A stretch of 12,103 nucleotides of DNA, from positions 6,764 to 18,866 of the forward strand of contig DAWB01000212.1 of the NCBI GenBank assembly GCA_002505805.1, read 5' to 3'. Both the position numbers and the translations under genes were made by a program. Origin of the DNA: Methanosaeta sp. UBA80. GTDB taxonomy: Archaea; Halobacteriota; Methanosarcinia; Methanotrichales; Methanotrichaceae. The notes below the pieces were generated by a model that worked only from the letters and a program-made list of their open reading frames with translations, made no database searches and was not told where the DNA came from. Position 1 is the first letter of the stretch; each line of letters starts with the position of its first letter. Shown in pieces: positions 627 to 11,960 of this stretch.

Positions 627-1493
627 TCAGCAATCAATTCCGTCGCAAGGGACCTTTTCCTTCTCCGGGACTGGATTCTCATGGAACTTTATGAGCTTCT
701 CCGCCTCGAACACTCCTGAGAACATCTCGTGGGCTTTGATGTCTTTGTAGAAGATCTTATGCCAGGTAGCATCGGTTCCCCAGGTACCATTGAAGCTGTT
801 TTTGGTGTCCATGCCTATTACATGAGCGGCATTATTGCCCATAAGCGCAGCCACACGATCTGTATCCCTTCCAGCATCCTTGAGGGCCTTGATGAGCTCC
901 TCGGGAGTCATGGTGGGATTGGCCTGGGCCATGTACTTGGAGTATTCCTCGGGATAGTACAGTGCCAAAAGCTGCAGATAATCCTGGTTCACAGGATCCA
1001 CAGGCCACTTTCTGGTGGTAGGCGCGGTTGAGACAAAGAATGCAGTCTGATCCTTCTCCATCTCAAATACAGCAAAATTCTCATCTATGGTGGCCCCGAT
1101 GCCGCCATAAAACTCCTTGGACTGCATGTGCTTGGCACCCACCAGGGGGGTATCTCCCGCATAGGTGAGCTTGGTGGACTCGTACAGATTGAGCTGCGAC
1201 TTGTCTCCCCCATTAACCGAGGTTATATTTCTCAGCAGCTTATCCGCATTCTGCGAGTAGGCATGCTCTTGATCTAGCTCCAAATCGCCATCACCCGCCA
1301 TGTTGTTGAAGTACTCCAGAGCGAGCTTTTTATCGACTATGGAGGTGCTGACATCAACAACACCTGTTCCTGACACTTTTTGTGCCTCGCAAAACTGCTC
1401 GTATTGTATTGGCGAAATCAGAGGAGGATTGGCCAATGCAATAGAGCAAGATAGCAATAGAACTAATGTTACTGCTATTACTACTCCCTTCAT
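627..1493 (-). CDS. Exported 288-aa protein of unknown function
   Basis: The protein starts with a Sec-type signal peptide (MKGVVIAVTLVLLLSCSIALA, cleavage likely after ALA-21). No further membrane segment is seen, so it should be released or held at the cell surface. An LLSC at residues 13-16 weakly resembles a lipobox but comes early. The mature chain has three Cys (35, 283, 288, the last two in a terminal CDGIDC), N-glycosylation sequons NIT and NGT, and a mixed alpha/beta composition. I recognise no catalytic motif. The start is well supported: a GGGGTGA ribosome binding site lies 6 nt upstream and a strong TATA box about 50 nt upstream. From memory, similar proteins are common in Methanothrix-type methanogens, which would fit an expanded lineage-specific surface family, but I cannot verify that here. 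Function is unknown. Confidence 0.85.
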   Translation of the reverse strand: MKGVVIAVTLVLLLSCSIALANPPLISPIQYEQFCEAQKVSGTGVVDVSTSIVDKKLALEYFNNMAGDGDLELDQEHAYSQNADKLLRNITSVNGGDKSQLNLYESTKLTYAGDTPLVGAKHMQSKEFYGGIGATIDENFAVFEMEKDQTAFFVSTAPTTRKWPVDPVNQDYLQLLALYYPEEYSKYMAQANPTMTPEELIKALKDAGRDTDRVAALMGNNAAHVIGMDTKNSFNGTWGTDATWHKIFYKDIKAHEMFSGVFEAEKLIKFHENPVPEKEKVPCDGIDC

Positions 1494-1741: not shown

Positions 1742-1786
1742 TGAATTCAAGTACTGACTATGGCTATAAGGTCTATTGTGATCCTT

Positions 1787-3889
1787 ATGGCTAAAGATCC
1801 CAATCAAAGCAAGAGTCCGTCCGCTCTCTCTGGACCTGCCAATCGCCTCATCGACGAGAAGAGTCCCTACCTTCTCCAGCACGCCCATAATCCCGTGGAC
1901 TGGTACCCCTGGAGCGAGGAAGCCTTCCAGGCTGCCGCCAGAGAGGACAGGCCGGTCTTTCTATCAGTGGGCTACTCCACCTGCCACTGGTGCCACGTGA
2001 TGGAACGGGAGACATTTGAGGACGAGAAGGCCGCCCGTGTTTTGAATGAGGGATTTGTGAGCATCAAGGTGGACCGGGAGGAGCGGCCGGATATAGACCA
2101 GATCTATATGAAGGCCGCCCTGGCCATGACCGGCCGGGGAGGCTGGCCCCTTTCCATAATCATGACTGCAGACAAGAAGCCCTTCTTTGCCGCAACCTAT
2201 ATTCCCAAGAGGGGGAGCTTCGGCCAGGCGGGGATGATGGAGATCATTCCCAGGATAGGAGAGCTATGGCGGGAGAACAGAGATGAACTGCTTCGCTCGG
2301 CTGACCAGATCCTGGATCATCTAAAGCAAGCTGCAGTCGTGCCCTCCCCGGAGGATGAAGCTCTAGACGAATCCCTTCTGAAGAGGGGCTATGATGCTCT
2401 TGCATCCATCTATGATCCCCAAAACGGCGGCTTTGGCGGCGCACCCAAGTTCCCCGCCCCTCACAACCTCCTCTTTCTTCTCCGTTACTGGAAGAGAAGC
2501 AAAGACGCTTTTGCCCTGCAGATGGTAGAAGAGACCCTGCAAGCCATGAGCATGGGCGGCGTCTTCGATCACCTGGGAGGAGGATTTCACAGATACTCCA
2601 CCGATGCCGGATGGCGCATTCCTCATTTTGAGAAGATGCTCTACGACCAGGCCACGATGGCCATGGCCTATACCGAGGCCTACCAGGCCACGGGAAAAAA
2701 GGAGTATGCTAGGACGGTCCAGGAGATTTTGGGGTATGTTCTGCGCGATATGACCTCCCAACAGGGAGGCTTCTTCTCCGCCGAGGATGCCGACAGCGAG
2801 GGAGAAGAGGGAGCATACTACCTCTGGGGGGCGGAAGAGCTGAAAGAGGTGCTGGAAAAAGAGGATCTTCGTCTCCTGATCAGGCTCTTTGATATTTATG
2901 AGAGCGGCAACTTCGAGACGGGTAGGAATATTCTCATCGCCAGATCCACCTTCAAGGATGCAGCATCGGTGCTCGGCGTCAGCGAGGGTGATCTCTGGAG
3001 GCGTTGGGAGGGCATCAGAGAGAGACTGCTGTCTGTGCGCGAAAAGAGGGTGCATCCCCAAAAGGATGACAAGATACTGGCCGACTGGAACGGCCTGATG
3101 ATATCCGCCCTGGCCAAAGCGGCTCAGGCTCTAAACCGACCGGATTATGCCAATGCCGCAGCCAGGGCGGCAGATTTCATATTAAATGAGATGAAAACTG
3201 AAGACGGCAGACTGCTTCATTCCTACCGGGAAGGTTCAGCGATATCCGGCTGCCTGGATGATTACGCCTTTCTGGTTTGGGGTCTGATCGACCTCTATGA
3301 GACGCTATTCGAGATCAAATACCTGCGTGCTGCCGCTAAGCTGACCCGGGCCATGATAGAGCATTTCTGGGATAATGGAAAAGGCGGCCTATTCTTTTCC
3401 CCCGATGATGCATCGGATCTGCCCCTGAGAGAGAAGGCATTTCGCGATGGAGCTATTCCCTCCGGAAATTCTGCCGCCATGCTGGACCTTCTCCGGCTCA
3501 GCCATCTCACCGGCCAGCCGGAATGTGAAAATAAAGCCTGGCAGCTGGCCAGAGCCTCAGGAGCCTCGGCAGCTGGCCAGACCCTGGGATACACCATGCT
3601 TCTCTCCTCCCTGGACTATGGCCTTGGACCGGCCATCCAAATCGCCCTGGTGGGTAAAAAGGAAGATGAGGACGCTGTTGAGATGCTCAAAGTAATAAGA
3701 GAGCGCTTCCTGCCCAGCAAATCTGTACTCCTCTCCCAGGGAGAGGATACGGCAGAGATGGCCGAATTCGCCAGAGGCCTGGCAAAAATCGAAGGCAAGA
3801 GCGCTGCCTATGTTTGCAGCGGCAAGAGCTGCCGCCCACCGGTCACCAGCCCTCGGGAGTTAATGCTTATGCTGGGGGAGCAAAATTAG
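1787..3889 (+). CDS. Thioredoxin-fold DUF255 protein (YyaL/SPATA20 family)
   Basis: This 700-aa protein has the family's two-part layout. The N-terminal thioredoxin-like domain (about residues 20-180) has the hallmark [18 protein letters not shown] stretch and the redox motif STCHWCHVM (Cys 66 and 69), followed by [11 protein letters not shown]. The rest matches the alpha/alpha-barrel part that resembles GlcNAc 2-epimerase-like six-hairpin proteins, including [17 protein letters not shown] and [16 protein letters not shown]-terminal CSGKSC (677, 682) is also present. Length is normal and the chain looks intact. No signal peptide is seen, so it should be cytoplasmic. The biochemical role of the family is not settled; thiol-disulfide chemistry is the usual inference. 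I prefer the ATG at 1787 because GTGATC (1778-1783) precedes it. An in-frame ATG at 1760 would add nine residues but has no ribosome binding site. Confidence 0.93.
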
Positions 3890-4266: not shown

Positions 4267-4920
4267 ATGAACAAACACAAAGACCACATTCCTAAAAGGG
4301 ATATAATGTATGTCTTAAAAGAAGATGACTCTCAATATATTGTTAATGAGAGTTACTTCTACAAGACTGAGCCCTATTACACCATAGTCAGAAATGAGAA
4401 AGAGTGGATCAGGACCATACCCAGCAGCAGCGATGTGCTGGATGCCTACATCGTCCCCATCTGTCTGGAGAAGGCCAAGCTGGCCGGAATCCCGGTCTGC
4501 GAATGGATCATATCCAATGTCTATGTCTCCCTGCCGGCCATAGTATATGGGCTAAACTACTTCTCCACTCCATCGGACCATTTTCTGGTGTCGGATCTGG
4601 AGCAGGCCAAGCAGATAATCAAGCATGTCACCAATCGGGGGAGATATCCCTTCTGCTATCAGAAGATAAGCGAGAGAGCTACTGTGGTCAAATGCGTATC
4701 CATCTTCGGCAAGTCCATAAATTGCTGCGAGAAGGCCAGGGATCTGGCAGAAAGGATCTATGAGGTATTTCACCTCCCACTGGTGGAGATAGTGATGGTC
4801 AAGGACGAAGCAGGCTGCCGTCTCTCATCTCTCTCCCCTGTAAAATACTCCCAATTATCAAAAGATGAGACGGAAATGCTACAGGACCTCCTGGATAAGA
4901 GGGTGAGCCGCCTTGAGTAA
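4267..4920 (+). CDS. RLAN-like protein (RimK-like ATP-grasp N-terminal domain), stand-alone
   Basis: A 217-aa cytoplasmic protein without signal or membrane segments. I assign it to the RimK-like ATP-grasp N-terminal (RLAN) type mainly because it sits directly before a RimK-type ATP-grasp gene of the class that normally carries this domain fused at its N-terminus. Supporting features are the N-terminal Tyr-rich segment (ESYFYKTEPYYTIVRNEKEW, about residues 28-47) and a C-terminal segment with VVKCVSIFG and HLPLVEIVMVKDEAGCRLSSLSPV, which has the look of an RLAN tail. The family is proposed to help bind or position a substrate for the ligase. The start is supported by GGTGAT (4255-4260) 6 nt upstream. 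Its last 8 nt overlap the next gene, and that gene's ribosome binding site lies inside this one, so the two should be translationally coupled. Coding is near certain; the family name is moderate. Confidence 0.7.
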   Translation: MNKHKDHIPKRDIMYVLKEDDSQYIVNESYFYKTEPYYTIVRNEKEWIRTIPSSSDVLDAYIVPICLEKAKLAGIPVCEWIISNVYVSLPAIVYGLNYFSTPSDHFLVSDLEQAKQIIKHVTNRGRYPFCYQKISERATVVKCVSIFGKSINCCEKARDLAERIYEVFHLPLVEIVMVKDEAGCRLSSLSPVKYSQLSKDETEMLQDLLDKRVSRLE

Positions 4921-5941
4921 GCTGGGCATATTTGTAAATCGACAGACCTTGAGCAGCTCGGAGCAGATCACGGCTGTGATAAAATGCAGAGATGTGGCTG
5001 AGAGCATGGGCCATACCGTAGAGTTCATCTTCCCCGTGGACATGAAAAAGATCCCCAAGCTGGATGCCCTCTTTATCCGTGCCAATACCGATCCCATGAA
5101 CAGCACCTATGTTGCGGCCCGGATGGCCCAGATGTACGGCATACCGGTGATAGACGATCCTGAATCCATAAAGATCTGCGCCGATAAAATCAATATGTAC
5201 ATGCATCTTATGAAAAAGAAAATCTCCATGCCTCAGACCCGCTTTTTAAGGAAAAAGGAACTGGATGAGGCCCAGGCAGCTGCACTATTCCTGGAATTGG
5301 GCTCTCCCCTGGTGCTCAAAGAGCCATCCACCTCCTTTTCCGCCCGGGTGGAGAAGGTGGAAAGTGTGGAGGATTTGCTCAAGGTGGCCAGAAGGTTCTT
5401 CAAGCTCTCGGACTGGATTGTGGTGCAGGAGTATATCGAGAGCAGGTTCGACTGGAGGGTGGGGGTGGTCGGCGGCCAATTGCTCTATGCCTGCCGGTAC
5501 ATCATTCCCTCTGAGACCTTCAAGATCCAGGCATCGGTGAATGGCCATGTCGTTTATTGCGATGTGGAGAGCGTGCCTGCCGATCAGGTTCCCCCGGAGG
5601 TCATAAGTCTGGGGCTAGAGGCCGGCAATGCTATAGGCAAGGGCCTATACGGAGTGGATATCAAGGAGAGCAACGGAAAGCTCTATGTCATTGAGGTCAA
5701 CGACAATCCCTCTCTGGAAGGGGGAGAGGATGCTCATTATCCGGATATGTTCGGAAAGATCATATCCTATCTCATGACCGGAGACGCAAGAGGCTATGCC
5801 GAGAGCCTCTCTCAAAAGGCCCTGGATTATGATGGCCTTGAGGGTGGACTGAGCCTGCGATCCGATTCTGCTTTATGCAGCCCATCCGCTCTGACCGAAA
5901 ATGAGTCCTACTCCTATAAAATAGATTTTTCGGAGAGATAG
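4913..5941 (+). CDS. RimK-type ATP-grasp ligase
   Basis: A 342-aa ATP-grasp enzyme, expected to activate a carboxylate as acyl-phosphate and join it to an amine. Visible family marks, in order: LDALFIRANTDPMNSTY (50-66) and GIPVIDDPESIKICADK (76-92) in the pre-ATP-grasp region, LVLKEPSTSFSARVEKV with ATP-contacting Lys136, VVQEYIESRFDWRVGVVGG (170-188), GVDI with Asp249, and the Mg-binding IEVNDNPSLEGGEDA (Glu261, Asn263, Asn265). These fit the RimK branch that usually carries an RLAN domain. The last ~45 residues, rich in Ser/Leu, form a tail beyond the normal end. It starts at TTG (4913) with GGGTGA (4901-4906) 6 nt upstream, overlapping the RLAN-like gene by 8 nt (TTGAGTAA). A T-run (CTTTTTTTAT, about 5953-5961) after the stop could end the transcript. 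Substrate is unknown; glutamate or another amino acid is plausible. Confidence 0.9.
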   Translation: MSKLGIFVNRQTLSSSEQITAVIKCRDVAESMGHTVEFIFPVDMKKIPKLDALFIRANTDPMNSTYVAARMAQMYGIPVIDDPESIKICADKINMYMHLMKKKISMPQTRFLRKKELDEAQAAALFLELGSPLVLKEPSTSFSARVEKVESVEDLLKVARRFFKLSDWIVVQEYIESRFDWRVGVVGGQLLYACRYIIPSETFKIQASVNGHVVYCDVESVPADQVPPEVISLGLEAGNAIGKGLYGVDIKESNGKLYVIEVNDNPSLEGGEDAHYPDMFGKIISYLMTGDARGYAESLSQKALDYDGLEGGLSLRSDSALCSPSALTENESYSYKIDFSER

Positions 5942-5951
5942 AGAAAGCCCA

Positions 5952-5962
5952 ACCTTTTTTTA
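5952..5962 (+). terminator. T-run terminator after the ATP-grasp gene
   Basis: ACCTTTTTTTATG follows the ATP-grasp stop by about 11 nt. A run of seven T is enough for intrinsic termination in archaea. AT-rich promoter-like sequence follows (TATTTATTTG and ATTAAATTAAATC, about 5992-6023), suggesting the next two genes can be transcribed separately. Confidence 0.4.
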
Positions 5963-6052
5963 TGCTGCATGAGAGGACGCATTTTAAAGGATATTTATTT
6001 GAATATTACTATTAAATTAAATCAAAGAGTCATTCAAAGAGATGATGATCTG

Positions 6053-6544
6053 ATGGAAGATGATCTATGCGAGGCTTTAAGCCGCTCTTGCCAGGGCTGC
6101 CGTCTTCAAGGAGGCTGCTGCTTTCAGGCCAGGCCGCCCCTGAGCCAGGAGAGAATCGATATTCTGAGAAGAAACGGTGTGCCTGATGAGGCTATGGAAT
6201 TTGAGGGATATTGGAGGCTGCGAACCAAGCCTGACGGCTATTGCATTCTCTTTGTGGATGGCAAATGCAGCATTCATTCCATTAAGCCGGAGAGCTGCGT
6301 GGCCGGGCCTTTTACATTTGATATTAAGAAGAGAATGCTCCAGATCTTCCTCAAGAGAGAGGTCATCTGTCCCATGGTCGGTTTTCTCAAGGCCAATCCC
6401 AATGCCTATGATTCACTGATGGAGACATCCGTGGACAGGATCATGCATCTGGTGAGAAGCATTCCCGCCGCAGAGATGGCCGAGATCCTGAAGATAGATG
6501 AGCCGGAAACGGATCTGGTGGCAGAGATAGCTCTAAAGGACTGA
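6053..6544 (+). CDS. YkgJ-type Cys-cluster (zinc/iron-binding) protein
   Basis: A 163-aa protein with the YkgJ/CxxCxxCC arrangement: C-x2-C-x5-CC (Cys 13, 16, 22, 23) near the start, then GYC-x7-C-x9-C (64, 72, 82) within GKCSIHSIKPESCVAGPF, and a further Cys at 107. These Cys are expected to bind zinc or an iron-sulfur centre; the family's biochemical role is not established. I prefer the ATG at 6053, preceded by GATGATC. An upstream in-frame ATG at 5969 would add 28 residues with unrelated composition, encoded by AT-rich DNA that looks like a promoter, and has no ribosome binding site. The gene ends 6 nt before the GCS2-type ligase gene, so they almost surely share a transcript. This suggests a role beside the ligase, for example metal supply or modification, but that is inference. 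Confidence 0.85.
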   Translation: MEDDLCEALSRSCQGCRLQGGCCFQARPPLSQERIDILRRNGVPDEAMEFEGYWRLRTKPDGYCILFVDGKCSIHSIKPESCVAGPFTFDIKKRMLQIFLKREVICPMVGFLKANPNAYDSLMETSVDRIMHLVRSIPAAEMAEILKIDEPETDLVAEIALKD

Positions 6545-6550
6545 AAGGAT

Positions 6551-7720
6551 ATGCCCACAGCATTTTTCAGAGCTTTGGCAGCCGGGTCATGCATCGGAAC
6601 AGAGCATGAGTACTCCATAAACGACAAGAGCCAGCGGGCTCTGGCCATATCCGATCAGATCATAGAGAGAATTGCCGGATGGCTGGATCATGAGGTGGCC
6701 TTCGGGGGCATCCTGGTCTCCAAGGAGCTGCAAAAGCATGCCATCGAGCTGATCCCCCATAGGCCGGGAGGCCTGGGATTCTTGGAAGAGAACCTCTACC
6801 AGGGTCTCTGCCAGCTTTACCATGCCACCAACCATGAGTATGCCTTCATGGGCCTGGGAATGCATCCGCTTTTAAGGTTGGATGAGACGGCATGCTGGGA
6901 CCATGACGAGCAGGAGTACTATCAGACTTACGACCGCCTCTTTAACATAAGACAGCATGGCTGGCTGAACATTCAGGCTCTGCAGATCAATATCCCCTAT
7001 CGGGGAAAACGAGATCTAGTGGCCATGTTCAATAAGATCCGCGCTCTTATGCCCTATCTGGTGGCCGTATCCGCCTCCTCGCCTCTGGTGGAAGGAAAAG
7101 CCACATCCTATATGGACAACCGGCTGGTCTACTACCGGGAAAACCAGGCAGCCATCCCTGAGATCTGTCACGGCATCCTGCCGGAGAAGCTGGAGAGCGC
7201 GGATGAATATGTGAAAATCAACCGGCAGATATACACCCAGCTCAAGAAGCAGGGGGCAGACATCCTCTGCCGGGAGTGGGTTAACTCCCGAGGGGTTATA
7301 GTCAGGTTTAGCAGAAGCTGCCTGGAGGTAAAGGCCATAGATGAACAGGAGTGCCTGCACTCGGATATGGCCTTTTCCGCCTTCCTTTTAGCCCTGCTGC
7401 GATCAGACCTTGTCCTGGAGGAAGATGAAGAGAGCCTCCTCTCTCTGCTGGAGGAGGCCATGCGCCGTGGAGTAGCCTGCCTTCGTCCGGAGCTGGAGAG
7501 GCTGCTAGGGCAAGCGGAGAAGAGCGCCACAGCAGAGGAGAGGGGATATCTGCCACTGGTAGCCGAGAGAATTGAACAGGGAAGCCTGGCCGAGCTGATG
7601 GTAGAGAAGCTTCAAGAGACGGGTGCGGGGGAGGAGAAGATAAAGGATCTGATGCGCCAGATGCAGTGGTGCCTCAAGGAGAACCGGCCCTATTCTGTGG
7701 GGATGGAGAGCTGCAGCTGA
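6551..7720 (+). CDS. GCS2-type carboxylate-amine ligase (glutamate-cysteine ligase-like)
   Basis: A 389-aa cytoplasmic protein of the glutamate-cysteine ligase family 2 / glutamine-synthetase-like fold. The N-terminal IGTEHEYSI carries the metal-binding acidic pair (Glu18, Glu20). SKELQKHAIELIP (57-69) supplies further metal/ATP glutamates (59, 66), GLGMHPL (101-107) and LQINIPY (144-150) match later core strands, and RFSRSCLEVKAIDEQE (252-267) matches the usual R-x-x-x-x-x-E-x-K/R-x-x-D element. Members join the gamma- or alpha-carboxyl of an amino acid to an amine using ATP; classical ones make gamma-glutamylcysteine, but many have other substrates. Length is typical. The start is preceded by AAGGACTGAAAGGAT, and the gene follows the YkgJ-type gene by 6 nt. 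Specificity cannot be read from sequence, so no symbol is given. The company of an ATP-grasp ligase and a disulfide reductase favours a two-step peptide or thiol pathway. Confidence 0.88.
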   Translation: MPTAFFRALAAGSCIGTEHEYSINDKSQRALAISDQIIERIAGWLDHEVAFGGILVSKELQKHAIELIPHRPGGLGFLEENLYQGLCQLYHATNHEYAFMGLGMHPLLRLDETACWDHDEQEYYQTYDRLFNIRQHGWLNIQALQINIPYRGKRDLVAMFNKIRALMPYLVAVSASSPLVEGKATSYMDNRLVYYRENQAAIPEICHGILPEKLESADEYVKINRQIYTQLKKQGADILCREWVNSRGVIVRFSRSCLEVKAIDEQECLHSDMAFSAFLLALLRSDLVLEEDEESLLSLLEEAMRRGVACLRPELERLLGQAEKSATAEERGYLPLVAERIEQGSLAELMVEKLQETGAGEEKIKDLMRQMQWCLKENRPYSVGMESCS

Positions 7721-7733
7721 AAGACAAAGAAAA

Positions 7734-7742
7734 TCTATAAAG
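7734..7742 (+). promoter_or_regulatory. TATA box of the disulfide reductase gene
   Basis: TCTATAAAG, preceded by A-rich AAGAAAA as a possible BRE, lies about 36 nt before the ATG at 7774. Initiation near 7761 would give a leader of about 13 nt without a Shine-Dalgarno, so translation would be nearly leaderless. The gene can be expressed apart from the ligase cluster that ends at 7720. Confidence 0.5.
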
Positions 7743-7773
7743 GCATTCTGTCCCTAAAATCATTTTCGATATT

Positions 7774-9171
7774 ATGGAAGAATTCGATCTCATTGTCATC
7801 GGCTCCGGAGCGGGGACCAATGTGGCCTCAGAGGCAGCTCAGAAAGGCCTGCGAGTAGCCCTGGTGGACCAGGGACCCACAGGCGGCACCTGCCTGAACA
7901 ACGGCTGCATTCCCTCCAAGATGCTCATCTATCCGGCGGATGTTATCCGCAGCATTCAGGATGCCAGAAATATCGGCGTTCATGCTGAGCTGCATGAGGT
8001 TGACTTCGAAAAAATCATGAGCCGCATGCATGGTGTGGTGGATGAGGCCCGCCGAAATCTGGAGGAGTCTCTGGACAAGGCAGAGGGCCTGACCTATATA
8101 AAAGAGAGAGCGGAATTTGTTGGCGATTATGTGCTTAAGGTGGGTGAGAAAACCATCACCTCCCAAAAGATTGTCATCGCCACCGGTGCCCGGTCCCTCC
8201 TACCTGCCATTCCCGGCCTGCGGGAGGCGGGATTTCTGGACAATGTGTCGCTTCTCCAGGCAAAAGAGCTGCCCCGCAGCCTGATCATCATCGGGGGAGG
8301 CTATATCGCCTGCGAGTTCGGCCACTTCTTTTCCGCTCTGGGTGTTGATGTCACCATAATCGGCCGCCATCCTCTTCTCCTGAAAGGAGAGGACCCGGAG
8401 GCGGCTAGGCTGGTTCAGCAGAGATTGTCCTTGTTCATGCGAATTGTCACCGGCCATGAGGTCGTCTCCGTGGAAAGCAGAGGAGGGCGGAAAGCTGTCT
8501 CTGCCAAAAACATGGAGGATGGGAGAATTCTTCAGTTTGAGGGCGATGAGATTCTTCTGGCAGCAGGCCGCCAGCCCAACTCCGATCTGCTCCACCCTGA
8601 GAGAAGCGGCGTGAAGACGGACCGGCAGGGATGGATTTGGGTCGATGAGCATCTTGAGACCAGCAAGAAAGGCGTATATGCCCTGGGCGATGCCCTGGGA
8701 AAGCACATGTACCGGCATACGGCCAATTACGAGGCAGAGGTGGTAGGCCATAATCTGTTTCATGGGGAGGGAGAGGCAAATCTGGTTGAGGCAGACTACC
8801 ATGCCGTTCCTTATGCCGTCTTCACCTATCCTGCGGTGGCGGGAGTGGGGATGAAGGAGACAGAAGCTGCTGCTAAAGGCTTAAAGGTGCTTGTAGGAAG
8901 AGCTGCCTACATGGACACGGCCAAGGGGATGGCTATGGGCGAAGAGGACGGCCTGGTCAAGGTTGTTTTAGAAGAGGAGACAGGAAAGATTCTGGGGGCC
9001 ACAATTGTAGGCCCGTCTGCCCCGGAGCTGGCCCAGCAGGTCGTCTATCTCATGAACACCGAATACCAGGACCTCATGCCGGTAATAAGATCGCAGGTGA
9101 TTCATCCCACCCTAAATGAGGTGCTGGTGAGGGCTTTTTCCCGGATGCAGCGCCCAAAATGGCAGGCTTGA
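7774..9171 (+). CDS. FAD-dependent pyridine nucleotide-disulfide oxidoreductase
   Basis: A 465-aa class I flavoprotein disulfide reductase of the dihydrolipoamide dehydrogenase/mercuric reductase/mycothione reductase group. Order of elements: FAD-binding VIGSGAGTNVA (8-18), redox-active GGTCLNNGCIPSK (Cys40, Cys45), NAD(P)-binding IIIGGGYIACEFG, second FAD motif KGVYALGDALGKH, and the dimer-interface catalytic HPTLNE (His444, Glu449). All catalytic residues are present, so it should pass electrons from NAD(P)H through FAD to a disulfide. The asparagine in CLNNGC, and the absence of nearby 2-oxoacid dehydrogenase E1/E2 genes, argue against a routine lipoamide role. Mercuric reductase is unlikely: there is no N-terminal metal-binding domain and no C-terminal vicinal Cys pair. 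It lies 53 nt after the GCS2-type gene on the same strand with its own TATA box. A substrate made by the upstream ligases, for example a gamma-glutamyl-thiol disulfide, is an attractive inference. Confidence 0.92.
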   Translation: MEEFDLIVIGSGAGTNVASEAAQKGLRVALVDQGPTGGTCLNNGCIPSKMLIYPADVIRSIQDARNIGVHAELHEVDFEKIMSRMHGVVDEARRNLEESLDKAEGLTYIKERAEFVGDYVLKVGEKTITSQKIVIATGARSLLPAIPGLREAGFLDNVSLLQAKELPRSLIIIGGGYIACEFGHFFSALGVDVTIIGRHPLLLKGEDPEAARLVQQRLSLFMRIVTGHEVVSVESRGGRKAVSAKNMEDGRILQFEGDEILLAAGRQPNSDLLHPERSGVKTDRQGWIWVDEHLETSKKGVYALGDALGKHMYRHTANYEAEVVGHNLFHGEGEANLVEADYHAVPYAVFTYPAVAGVGMKETEAAAKGLKVLVGRAAYMDTAKGMAMGEEDGLVKVVLEEETGKILGATIVGPSAPELAQQVVYLMNTEYQDLMPVIRSQVIHPTLNEVLVRAFSRMQRPKWQA

Positions 9172-9653: not shown

Positions 9654-9821
9654 ATGACGGCTAAGAGATATCAATGCAGCATCTGCGGATACATTTACGA
9701 TCCGGCGAAAGGAGATCCTGACTCTGGAATTGCCCCAGGCACGCCTTTTTCCGATCTTCCCGATAGCTGGATCTGCCCCATGTGCGGCGCTATGAAAAGC
9801 GATTTCAGAGCCCTGGACTGA
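9654..9821 (+). CDS. Rubredoxin
   Basis: A 55-aa one-iron electron carrier. It has the two iron-binding knuckles (CSICGY near the start and CPMCG near the end) and the full core [18 protein letters not shown] followed by FSDLPDSW. Length is typical. I place the start at ATG 9654 because GGTGAT (9644-9649) lies 4 nt before it; in-frame TTG, ATG and GTG codons at 9639-9650 would only add a Met-rich leader (MMVMT). It lies 20 nt before the flavodiiron protein gene, so the two form an operon. In bacteria rubredoxin feeds electrons to flavodiiron proteins; methanogen FprA can take them directly from F420H2, so this rubredoxin may be an alternative donor or serve another partner. Confidence 0.95.
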
Positions 9822-9841
9822 TCGCGAAGAGGATGAAAGAG

Positions 9842-11026
9842 ATGGCTCTGTGCAGAGAGATCAGGCCGGGAATAATGTGGGTCGGCGCACTGGACTGGGA
9901 TCGCAGACTCTTTGATGCTCTGATTCCCCTTCCTCGGGGAACCAGCTACAACTCCTATTTGATCCGGGGAGAAGAGAAGACTGCTCTCATCGATGCTGTA
10001 GATGAGAGCAAGATAGAAATGCTCATGGACAGCCTCAGATCCCTTTCTGTCGAGAGGCTGGACTACATCATCGTCCAGCATGCGGAGCAGGACCACTCCG
10101 GAGGACTGAAGAGGCTCCTGGAGCAATATCCGAAAGCCATAGTACTGGGATCGGCCAGATCTCTGGATCTGCTGGCTGAGTTTGGCCTGATAGAAGGGGG
10201 GACAGGACAGGAGGCAAAGGACGGAGATATCATACCGCTGGGCGGAACAAGCCTCCAGTTCATAGTCGCTCCCTGGGTTCACTGGCCGGACACCATTTTC
10301 ACCTATATCCCGGAGGAGCGTATCCTCTTCACCTGCGACTTTCTGGGCTCCCATCTGGCAACAAGTGATCTGTTCCCCATGGATGAGGCACAGCTGTATC
10401 ATCTTGCTAAAAGGTATTATGCCGAGATCATGATGCCCTTCCGCTCCAGCGTCAAGAGACACCTGGCCAGATTGGAGGGCCTGGAGGTGGAGATCGTAGC
10501 CCCCAGCCACGGGCCGGTTCTGGACCGGCCGGGTTTGATCCTGGATGCCTACAGAGACTGGGCCTCAGACAGGGTCAAAAATGAGGTGGTATTGGCTTAT
10601 GTCTCCATGCATGGCTCCACCCGGATCATGGCCGATCATTTTGTCGAGGCTCTGATCTCTCGAGGGGTAGCGGTGAGGAGATTCGATCTAACCGATTATG
10701 ACCTGGGAGATCTGGCCGAGTCCCTGGTTGATGCGGCTACCATTGTAATCGGAACCCCAACTATGCTCGCCGGAGCCCATCCTCTGGCCCTTTATGCCGC
10801 CACACTGGCCAATGCCCTGCGGCCCAAGACCAGGTACGCCTCCGTCATTGGCTCTTTAGGCTGGGGAGGCAAGATGCTGGAGCAGATCACAGAGAGCCTC
10901 TCCGGCCTTCAGCTTCAGTTCCTGGATCCGGTGGTGGCAAAGGGCAGGCCCAAAGAGGCCGATTTCGCTGCCCTGGATCGCCTGGCCGATGAGATAGCCT
11001 CCCTGCATCAGAAGCTGGCTGAGTGA
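9842..11026 (+). CDS. fprA: Flavodiiron protein, FprA-type (F420H2 oxidase)
   Basis: A 394-aa A-type flavoprotein that reduces O2 to water (some homologues act on NO), protecting an anaerobe. The N-terminal metallo-beta-lactamase-like domain has all six diiron ligands: H-x-E-x-D-H (His80, Glu82, Asp84, in QHAEQDHSGG), His147 (WVHWPD), Asp166 (TCDFLGSH) and His223 (PSHGPVL). The C-terminal flavodoxin domain begins near residue 250 with AYVSMHGSTRIMA for FMN phosphate binding and continues with VIGTPTMLAGAHP. Length is normal. I prefer ATG 9842 (MALCREIRPGI) because GAGGATGA (9829-9836) precedes it by 5 nt. Upstream in-frame ATGs at 9833 and 9782 exist; the latter would overlap the rubredoxin gene by 40 nt. 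F420H2 as donor is inferred from FprA in methanogens. Confidence 0.93.
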   Translation: MALCREIRPGIMWVGALDWDRRLFDALIPLPRGTSYNSYLIRGEEKTALIDAVDESKIEMLMDSLRSLSVERLDYIIVQHAEQDHSGGLKRLLEQYPKAIVLGSARSLDLLAEFGLIEGGTGQEAKDGDIIPLGGTSLQFIVAPWVHWPDTIFTYIPEERILFTCDFLGSHLATSDLFPMDEAQLYHLAKRYYAEIMMPFRSSVKRHLARLEGLEVEIVAPSHGPVLDRPGLILDAYRDWASDRVKNEVVLAYVSMHGSTRIMADHFVEALISRGVAVRRFDLTDYDLGDLAESLVDAATIVIGTPTMLAGAHPLALYAATLANALRPKTRYASVIGSLGWGGKMLEQITESLSGLQLQFLDPVVAKGRPKEADFAALDRLADEIASLHQKLAE

Positions 11027-11034
11027 GAATCAAG

Positions 11035-11050
11035 GCAGATCTCTATCTGC
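11035..11050 (+). terminator. Small hairpin after the flavodiiron gene
   Basis: GCAGAT (11035-11040) and ATCTGC (11045-11050) are perfect complements around CTCT, 8 nt past the flavodiiron stop. There is no following T-run, so a processing or regulatory stem is as likely as a terminator. Confidence 0.3.
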
Positions 11051-11084
11051 AGGGCATAATCTTGCTGCTGAAGAGCGGATCGGG

Positions 11085-11107
11085 CAGAGATAGATGCAGG
11101 ATCTCTG
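11085..11107 (+). promoter_or_regulatory. Hairpin just before the TauE/SafE gene
   Basis: CAGAGAT (11085-11091) and ATCTCTG (11101-11107) form a 7-bp stem with a 9-nt loop, ending 10 nt before the ATG at 11118. It occupies the place of a ribosome binding site, none of which is obvious. The AGAGAT arm can also pair with ATCTCT at 11039-11044 in the preceding hairpin, so alternative folds are possible. Confidence 0.3.
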
Positions 11108-11117
11108 ACTTCAGGCC

Positions 11118-11960
11118 ATGATTTCCGAGTCTCTGATCTTCTATGCGCTGGTACTTCTGGCGACGGGGATAGCAGTAGGCTTTTTCTGCGGCCTTCTGGG
11201 GGTGGGGGGAGGCTTTCTCATGGTGCCGATTCAGATCTGGCTCCTCTCCCTGCAAGGAGTTGAGGCTACCCTGGCCACCAGAATTGCCTTTGCCACCTCT
11301 CTGGCCGTGGTGCTTCCCACGGCTATTTCCGGCTGCAGAAAACACTCCTGCTGGGGAGTGGTCCTGTGGCAAGAGGGGGTGATCATAGGGCTCTTCGGGA
11401 TGCTGGGCGGCTTTTTAGGGGGGACCATAGCCTCTTATGCACCCGGAGAGCTTCTCAGGATGATCTTCGGAATTATCGTCATACTTGCGGCTGCAAGAAT
11501 GCTGTTTGTCCCCCATTTCCAGACCTGGCAAGAGCCTCATAAAAGGCCGAAAAAGAGCATTATCCATTATATGATCTGGGGGGTGGCGGTGGGGGTTCTA
11601 TCCGGACTGACAGGCATCGGAGGTGGATTGATGCTGGTTCCGATAATGATTATTGCCCTGGGCTTTAACTTGTATCAGGCCATTGGCACCTCCTCTGTAG
11701 CCATATCCTTTAACGCCCTGGGTGGAATCACAGCCTATGCCATAAACGGGTGGGGTTTGGAGGGACTGCCCAGTTATTGTTTGGGCTACATCGACCTTCT
11801 GCAGTTTCTCCTTTTGGCCGCAGGCAGCATATTGGCTGCCCCATGGGGAGCAAAGATTGCCCATCGATTGCCGGCAGATAGGCTCAAGCATATATTTGTG
11901 ATATTGATGTTCTATATAGGGCTGAAGATGATAGGAGCCATAGAGTGGGCTGGACTATAG
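11118..11960 (+). CDS. TauE/SafE-family membrane permease
   Basis: A 280-aa integral membrane protein with about eight hydrophobic segments in two related halves. Each half opens with the family signature: GLLGVGGGFLMVPI (about residues 25-38) and GLTGIGGGLMLVPI (about 163-176). The halves are joined by a polar loop around residues 130-147 (HFQTWQEPHKRPKK). The family (YfcA/TauE/SafE) exports or imports small anions and sulfur compounds such as sulfite, sulfoacetate or taurine; the substrate here is unknown. The internal duplication and length are typical. It follows the flavodiiron gene by 91 nt on the same strand with two hairpins between, so co-transcription is possible but not assured. 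No clear ribosome binding site precedes the ATG. A link to sulfur/thiol metabolism of the upstream genes is only suggestive. Confidence 0.9.
   Translation: MISESLIFYALVLLATGIAVGFFCGLLGVGGGFLMVPIQIWLLSLQGVEATLATRIAFATSLAVVLPTAISGCRKHSCWGVVLWQEGVIIGLFGMLGGFLGGTIASYAPGELLRMIFGIIVILAAARMLFVPHFQTWQEPHKRPKKSIIHYMIWGVAVGVLSGLTGIGGGLMLVPIMIIALGFNLYQAIGTSSVAISFNALGGITAYAINGWGLEGLPSYCLGYIDLLQFLLLAAGSILAAPWGAKIAHRLPADRLKHIFVILMFYIGLKMIGAIEWAGL

Follow-up and report, generated by a model that had tools for sequence, protein, structure and literature searches.

Which of five neighbouring genes in a methanogen genome act together, and what might they make? The genes lie in a 12,103-nucleotide stretch of Methanosaeta sp. 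UBA80 DNA (contig DAWB01000212.1, positions 6,764 to 18,866 of the forward strand); we refer to the whole of this stretch as the window. A sequence-only reading had pointed out an RLAN-like protein, an ATP-grasp ligase, a YkgJ-type cysteine-cluster protein, a GCS2-type ligase and a disulfide reductase, and had suggested that the ligases make a gamma-glutamyl or similar amide and that the reductase keeps a thiol product reduced. The first four genes (4267-7720), here called the cassette, keep their order and are co-inherited in several anaerobic archaeal groups, many of them methanogens. We hold with about even confidence that these four genes, the reductase excluded, are one functional unit that builds a small peptide-like metabolite.

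The genes of the locus

An open reading frame (ORF) check of the window found all five genes on the plus strand at the positions at which the sequence-only reading had placed them. The coordinates and the Pfam matches confirm its description of five genes on one strand with short gaps:

4267..4920, plus strand: RLAN protein of 217 aa (PF14401, E 2.7e-7)
4913..5941, plus strand: RimK-like ATP-grasp ligase with a TTG start (PF08443, E 2.1e-13)
6053..6544 (probable; the longest ORF is 5969-6544), plus strand: CxxCxxCC (YkgJ-type) protein (PF03692, E 1.7e-7)
6551..7720, plus strand: GCS2-type carboxylate-amine ligase (PF04107, E 1.3e-40)
7774..9171, plus strand: FAD disulfide reductase, a lineage-specific neighbour (Pyr_redox_2, E 1.2e-57)

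The RLAN and ATP-grasp ORFs overlap by 8 bases. The YkgJ gene probably starts at window position 6053, because most aligned homologues begin at Met29 of the longest ORF; the gap between the ATP-grasp and YkgJ genes is then probably 111 bases, not the 27 bases implied by a start at 5969. YkgJ and GCS2 are separated by 6 bases, and GCS2 and the reductase by 53 bases. The source assembly is a draft in 244 contigs, 66.6% complete, and contains one GCS2 match.

Gene order across archaeal loci

Gene order was compared in two sets of loci, which overlap; their counts are not additive. Set 1 consists of 40 fetched neighbourhoods, half of them (20) from the family Methanotrichaceae (f1) and 20 from elsewhere in the phylum, the closest reductase-bearing relatives not being included. 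Set 2 consists of the best 80 of the 111 relatives found by a scan of named genome contigs. The order was assessed at loci with at least 2.5 kb of upstream sequence, which left 39 loci in set 1 (L061 was too short) and 67 in set 2 (13 were too short).

The order RLAN–ATP-grasp–YkgJ–GCS2, with all genes on the same strand, was found at 33 of the 39 loci in set 1 and at 55 of the 67 in set 2. Among the set 1 exceptions, two have RLAN–ATP-grasp–GCS2 (L077, and L085 with YkgJ directly after GCS2), and the four loci with another arrangement all belong to Archaeoglobaceae (f8); seven set 2 loci have a different order. The names in set 2 include Methanothrix, Methanoregula, Methanolinea, Methanomassiliicoccales and Methanoperedens; no record named Methanosarcina is among the best 80 of the 111 named loci. 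At L123 (Methanomicrobiales), the ATP-grasp gene is set apart from YkgJ by about 3 kb of extra sequence.

The other ORFs of at least 90 aa around the 40 set 1 loci served as a control: all were grouped by clustering, and inspection covered the 60 largest groups. Besides the four genes, no same-strand cluster among these 60 spans f1 and other families in more than six loci. The larger clusters that do span f1 and other families are wholly opposite-strand shadows of the four genes.

Where the cassette is rearranged, its parts separate in more than one way. In the Archaeoglobaceae loci L084, L087 and L089, GCS2 is followed by YkgJ, with RLAN–ATP-grasp facing them. In L177-L180, from the same family, YkgJ is faced by RLAN–ATP-grasp and GCS2 lies elsewhere in the genome, while L181 has all four genes on one strand. 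Five Methanomassiliicoccales genomes carry YkgJ–GCS2 (L128, L135, L137, L147, L148) apart from RLAN–ATP-grasp (L191-L195), and Methanoperedens locus L132 has ATP-grasp–RLAN faced by GCS2. We considered a division into two fixed modules (RLAN with ATP-grasp, and YkgJ with GCS2) and abandoned it, since YkgJ faces ATP-grasp in L177-L180. The closest pairing is that of RLAN with ATP-grasp; YkgJ sides with either GCS2 or ATP-grasp.

Co-occurrence across genomes

Presence and absence were scored across the phylum, in 392 genomes. GCS2 proteins of the cassette subfamily were counted at E <1e-30 (52 genomes), and 41 further genomes with weak GCS2 matches (E 4e-8 to 1e-3) were excluded as having other GCS2 families. 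The thresholds were E <=1e-40 for ATP-grasp, E <=1e-15 for YkgJ and E 1e-100 for the reductase.

The ATP-grasp gene was detected in 58 of the 392 genomes and together with GCS2 in 51, that is, in 51 of the 52 GCS2 genomes; the one genome with GCS2 and no ATP-grasp match is 73% complete. YkgJ was found in 49 genomes, all of them inside the GCS2 set (49/52). Fisher's test for the GCS2/ATP-grasp pair gives p 4e-55, a value that is not a true probability because the genomes are related. All eight genomes with unusual GCS2 loci (L127, L128, L132, L135, L137, L140, L147, L148) have the ATP-grasp gene; seven of these are labelled Methanomassiliicoccales, Methanomassiliicoccaceae or Methanomassiliicoccus, and one is Methanoperedens. 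Since genomes with split loci still carry the parts, these appear to be inherited jointly even when unlinked. The sequence-only reading had placed the ligases in one pathway, and the conserved order, the co-occurrence and the intact catalytic residues of both enzymes (described below) bear out that the ligase genes belong together.

The distribution is patchy within the home family: GCS2 is present in 39 of 50 Methanotrichaceae genomes and in none of the nine genomes of genus g8 or the two of genus g11. A family-model search detected RLAN in 27 of 196 genomes of the phylum and in none of 14 control genomes. Within those 196 genomes, RLAN matched most strongly in RLAN–ATP-grasp pairs of family f13 (L174, L175, L176), whose genomes lack the cassette GCS2. 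In two genomes (G224 and G368) the ATP-grasp and GCS2 matches are split or contain stop codons, through decay or assembly errors.

The disulfide reductase

The reductase carries the GGTCLNNGCIPSK and HPTLNEVL motifs and scores above the NCBIfam cut-off for dihydrolipoyl dehydrogenase (642.7 vs 592); among solved structures, mycothione reductases are its best relatives. Of the named loci, 70 have 1.5 kb or more of downstream sequence, and at two of these (L091 and L115) the reductase adjoins GCS2. At a third locus, L090, the contig ends inside a reductase gene next to GCS2. These three loci are close relatives, 81-92% identical. In set 1, assembled without those closest relatives, the reductase adjoins GCS2 at none of the 40 loci.

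Among the 50 family genomes, 26 have both GCS2 and the reductase, 13 have GCS2 only, nine have the reductase only and two have neither. The association has an odds ratio of 0.44 (p 0.47), and the reductase is present in nine of the 11 genomes lacking GCS2. The two genes lie side by side in three of the 26 genomes with both (G000, G020, G025) and across a contig break in G040; in the other 22 the reductase is on another contig or far off, these being mostly draft contigs.

On linkage and co-occurrence we rejected the reductase as a fifth member of the cassette: it is a local neighbour in close relatives. The conservation of five-gene order that the sequence-only reading had proposed to check holds for four genes, and the reductase is linked in close relatives only. 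The idea of thiol recycling loses its main support, since the reductase is neither generally linked to the cassette nor inherited with it. The earlier reading was half right: its observation of the locus is confirmed, and its interpretation is partly supported, the ligase unit standing and the role of the reductase falling away.

The cassette proteins

The ATP-grasp protein matches PF08443 with 50.7 bits (cut-off 21), and the active-site residues K92, K136, D249, E261 and N263 are invariant in 24 of 24 aligned rows. Its closest relatives by sequence in the PDB are RimK, ArgX and LysX; unlike these, it usually has an RLAN gene beside it. It scores below all 21 listed NCBIfam cut-offs, including those of RimK (88.5 vs 143.4), LysX (73.1 vs 275.6), MptN (72.3 vs 350) and CofF (38.6 vs 300). 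The RLAN protein matches PF14401 with 30.8 bits (cut-off 25), a partial match that covers profile positions 79-149 only. The predicted fold of this protein is compact and ATP-grasp-like, and the catalytic residues that are invariant in its partner are missing from it.

The GCS2 protein matches PF04107 with 140 bits (cut-off 21). The active-site GhExE motif (G16, E18, E20), in which h is Thr or Pro, is present in 30 of 31 aligned rows; in the remaining row (L082) it lies in frame upstream of the start chosen for the alignment. The predicted structure has the GCS2 fold and matches plant glutamate-cysteine ligase. Identity to that enzyme and to YbdK, which share the fold, is but 14-17%. No NCBIfam cut-off for GshA or YbdK is passed, the best score being 50.2 vs 176.4 bits. 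Against the profile of the cassette GCS2, five further archaeal GCS2 proteins from the phylum, of which three (L197-L199) are probably haloarchaeal, reach 27.6-43.3 bits, compared with 255 bits for a Legionella protein described below. Judged by sequence, the cassette GCS2 is a subfamily distinct from YbdK and from the other archaeal GCS2 proteins compared. Two cysteines, C240 and C257, are invariant in 31 of 31 aligned homologues. The subfamily also occurs in Archaeoglobaceae, and the cassette GCS2 of L084 (probably Archaeoglobus fulgidus) is likely to be AF2307, judged by its position in the contig. A passage of one expression study names AF2307, as a glutamate-cysteine ligase of A. fulgidus, among genes more than 2-fold up with growth on CO (PMC4543118).

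The YkgJ protein matches PF03692 with 32.3 bits (cut-off 23), and eight cysteines are invariant in 21 of 21 aligned rows. FliB has a similar cysteine motif with eight conserved cysteines and, according to an excerpt of its description, binds a [4Fe-4S] cluster (PMC8598068). The cysteine cluster is common to the cassette protein, FliB and other PF03692 proteins. Unlike FliB, the cassette protein is small, stands alone and is tied to ligases; its metal is putative, by analogy with FliB.

Bacterial relatives

A 2009 comparative-genomics paper on amidoligases reportedly noted a link between RLAN and GCS2, and the sequence-only reading had pointed to a link between RLAN-type ATP-grasp enzymes and GCS2-like ligases. 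In a tblastn search of a plasmid collection, 44 records matched, and five loci were looked at. These loci, from Legionella, Pseudomonas, Azospirillum, Tistrella and Aeromonas, encode RLAN–ATP-grasp fusions, unlike the separate overlapping genes of the cassette. On the Legionella adelaidensis plasmid (L183), the fusion is followed by a GCS2 gene, the ends of the two overlapping, and then by an N-formylglutamate amidohydrolase gene. It is this L. adelaidensis GCS2 that scores 255 bits with the profile of the archaeal proteins, and its record is the sole plasmid record matched by the window GCS2. A search for its relatives returned 4575 proteins at E 1e-15; among the 120 listed, those named by organism are from Legionella or Tatlockia.

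The Legionella locus bears out this link. It shares with the cassette an RLAN and a RimK-type ATP-grasp domain directly before a related GCS2; it differs in the fusion and in having the amidohydrolase in the place of YkgJ. The Azospirillum brasilense locus (L185) likewise has RLAN and a RimK-type ATP-grasp, but these are fused, a GNAT–peptidase C39-like (GNAT/DUF3335) gene precedes them, and there is no GCS2 within 6 kb. On the strength of the one Legionella locus, the RLAN–GCS2 pairing is not purely archaeal. The cassette, with its split genes and YkgJ, represents an archaeal variant of a kind that is known but, so far as our searches reached, uncharacterised. The titles and abstract openings returned by our literature searches contained no description of the cassette, and the papers searched gave no substrate for its enzymes.

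Neighbouring genes

The remaining features of the window flank the cassette and the reductase:

627-1493, minus strand: protein without a Pfam match at E 0.01
1760..3889, plus strand: YyaL/DUF255 thioredoxin-fold protein, an upstream neighbour not counted in the cassette (PF03190, E 6.3e-75)
9782-11960: FprA-like flavodiiron protein and TauE/SafE permease, downstream of the reductase

The YyaL gene is separated from the cassette by a gap of 377 bases. Its cluster is present at 16 of the 20 f1 loci vs none of the 20 others, and YyaL was rejected as a cassette member since it is confined to Methanotrichaceae loci. Several Methanothrix loci likewise encode the protein at 627-1493 close to the cassette, and the FprA-like/TauE pair is also downstream of the cassette in L093 and L115. 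No known RNA family was detected in the window at the gathering threshold. Scans of the window for sigma-70 promoters and terminators, which are ill-suited to archaea, gave results near chance level.

Proposed function and alternatives

In the reading that we prefer, the ATP-grasp protein would activate a carboxylate by forming its acyl phosphate and couple it to an amine. The RLAN protein would act as an inactive, ATP-grasp-like partner that shapes or presents the substrate. GCS2 would form a second amide bond, for which the side-chain carboxylate of an acid resembling glutamate is the probable site, and YkgJ would carry a metal, a [4Fe-4S] cluster if FliB is a guide, and modify or handle the same product. 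The product would be a free small peptide-like metabolite of anaerobic archaea. More specifically, and as a tentative proposal in which we place somewhat less trust than in the functional unit itself, a pseudo-ATP-grasp RLAN protein, an active ATP-grasp enzyme, a Lys-type GCS2 and a cysteine-cluster protein could make an undescribed metabolite common to Methanothrix, Methanomicrobiales, Methanomassiliicoccales, Methanoperedens and Archaeoglobaceae.

Several observations weigh against this reading. The set is not always complete: five of the 67 set 2 loci have no YkgJ match, three of the 52 GCS2 genomes lack YkgJ, and at L127 and L140 the ATP-grasp gene adjoins GCS2 with no RLAN detected at the locus. 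L177-L180 show that GCS2 is not the only gene with which YkgJ associates. Seven of the 58 genomes with the ATP-grasp gene (four f13, two f4, one f24) lack the cassette GCS2, and GCS2 is near the fusion in one of the five bacterial loci, with none nearby in the other four; the RLAN–ATP-grasp pair can work without GCS2. A profile-profile comparison found no sequence relation between RLAN and ATP-grasp (0.65% probability), so the pseudo-enzyme reading of RLAN rests on the predicted model. The cassette GCS2 also departs from the relatives compared in one motif. The Arg of the E-h-R motif, which lies close to the C-terminal catalytic strand, is catalytic. It is kept in YbdK, in the Legionella GCS2 and in the five other archaeal GCS2 proteins, whereas all 31 cassette rows have Lys (K261) in its place, and the chemistry of this Lys-type GCS2 may differ from that of known GCS2 enzymes.

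We rank a free peptide-like metabolite first and protein tagging second. Tagging, which we judge rather unlikely, would mean that the RLAN–ATP-grasp pair extends a protein with amino acids, much as RimK extends ribosomal protein S6, and that GCS2 caps or transfers the tag in the manner of PafA and Pup. The relatedness of the ATP-grasp protein to RimK, ArgX and LysX speaks for it, as these enzymes act on protein tails. PafA and Dop share the predicted GCS2 fold, and an excerpt of one study argues that PafA derives from GCS2 (PMC2588565). However, the clustering of ORFs of at least 90 aa revealed, in its 60 largest clusters, no small carrier gene widely common to f1 and other-family neighbourhoods, although a short carrier would escape it, and the aligned YkgJ homologues have no invariant C-terminal glutamate. 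That the four genes are mere neighbours with unrelated roles is very improbable: the parts do lie apart in some genomes, but Methanothrix and Methanomicrobiales loci keep the order, and the genes are co-inherited even when they are unlinked.

Two further explanations assign the cassette to known kinds of chemistry, and both appear improbable, the second slightly more so. In cofactor glutamylation, tetrahydromethanopterin, F420 or methanofuran would receive amino acids from the cassette enzymes, and the NCBIfam profiles of MptN and CofF do match the ATP-grasp protein; these scores are far under the cut-offs, the cassette is patchy to the point that GCS2 is missing from all nine genomes of genus g8 of its own family, and a related gene pair occurs in a bacterium. 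In a glutathione-like pathway, GCS2 would make gamma-glutamylcysteine, the ATP-grasp enzyme would extend it and the reductase would recycle the disulfide. The structural match to plant glutamate-cysteine ligase and the kinship of the reductase with mycothione reductases fit this scheme, and Haloferax GshA makes gamma-glutamylcysteine according to a passage of PMC7278568. The distribution of the reductase argues against it, as do the low scores and the E-h-R arginine of the other archaeal GCS2 proteins. A report cited by the same paper found five methanogens to be without glutathione or gamma-glutamylcysteine (PMC7278568). Nothing in our analysis points to a thiol product.

Since Archaeoglobaceae also have the GCS2 subfamily and a bacterium has a related gene pair, the metabolite of the preferred reading would not be confined to methanogens. 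The bystander status of the reductase removes a misleading lead towards thiols. The cassette offers a compact, testable target of two ligases, one partner and one metal-type protein, and the RLAN model, if true, would explain a Pfam domain named only for its position. A four-gene set kept in several groups of anaerobic archaea, Methanothrix among them, very probably has a defined job.

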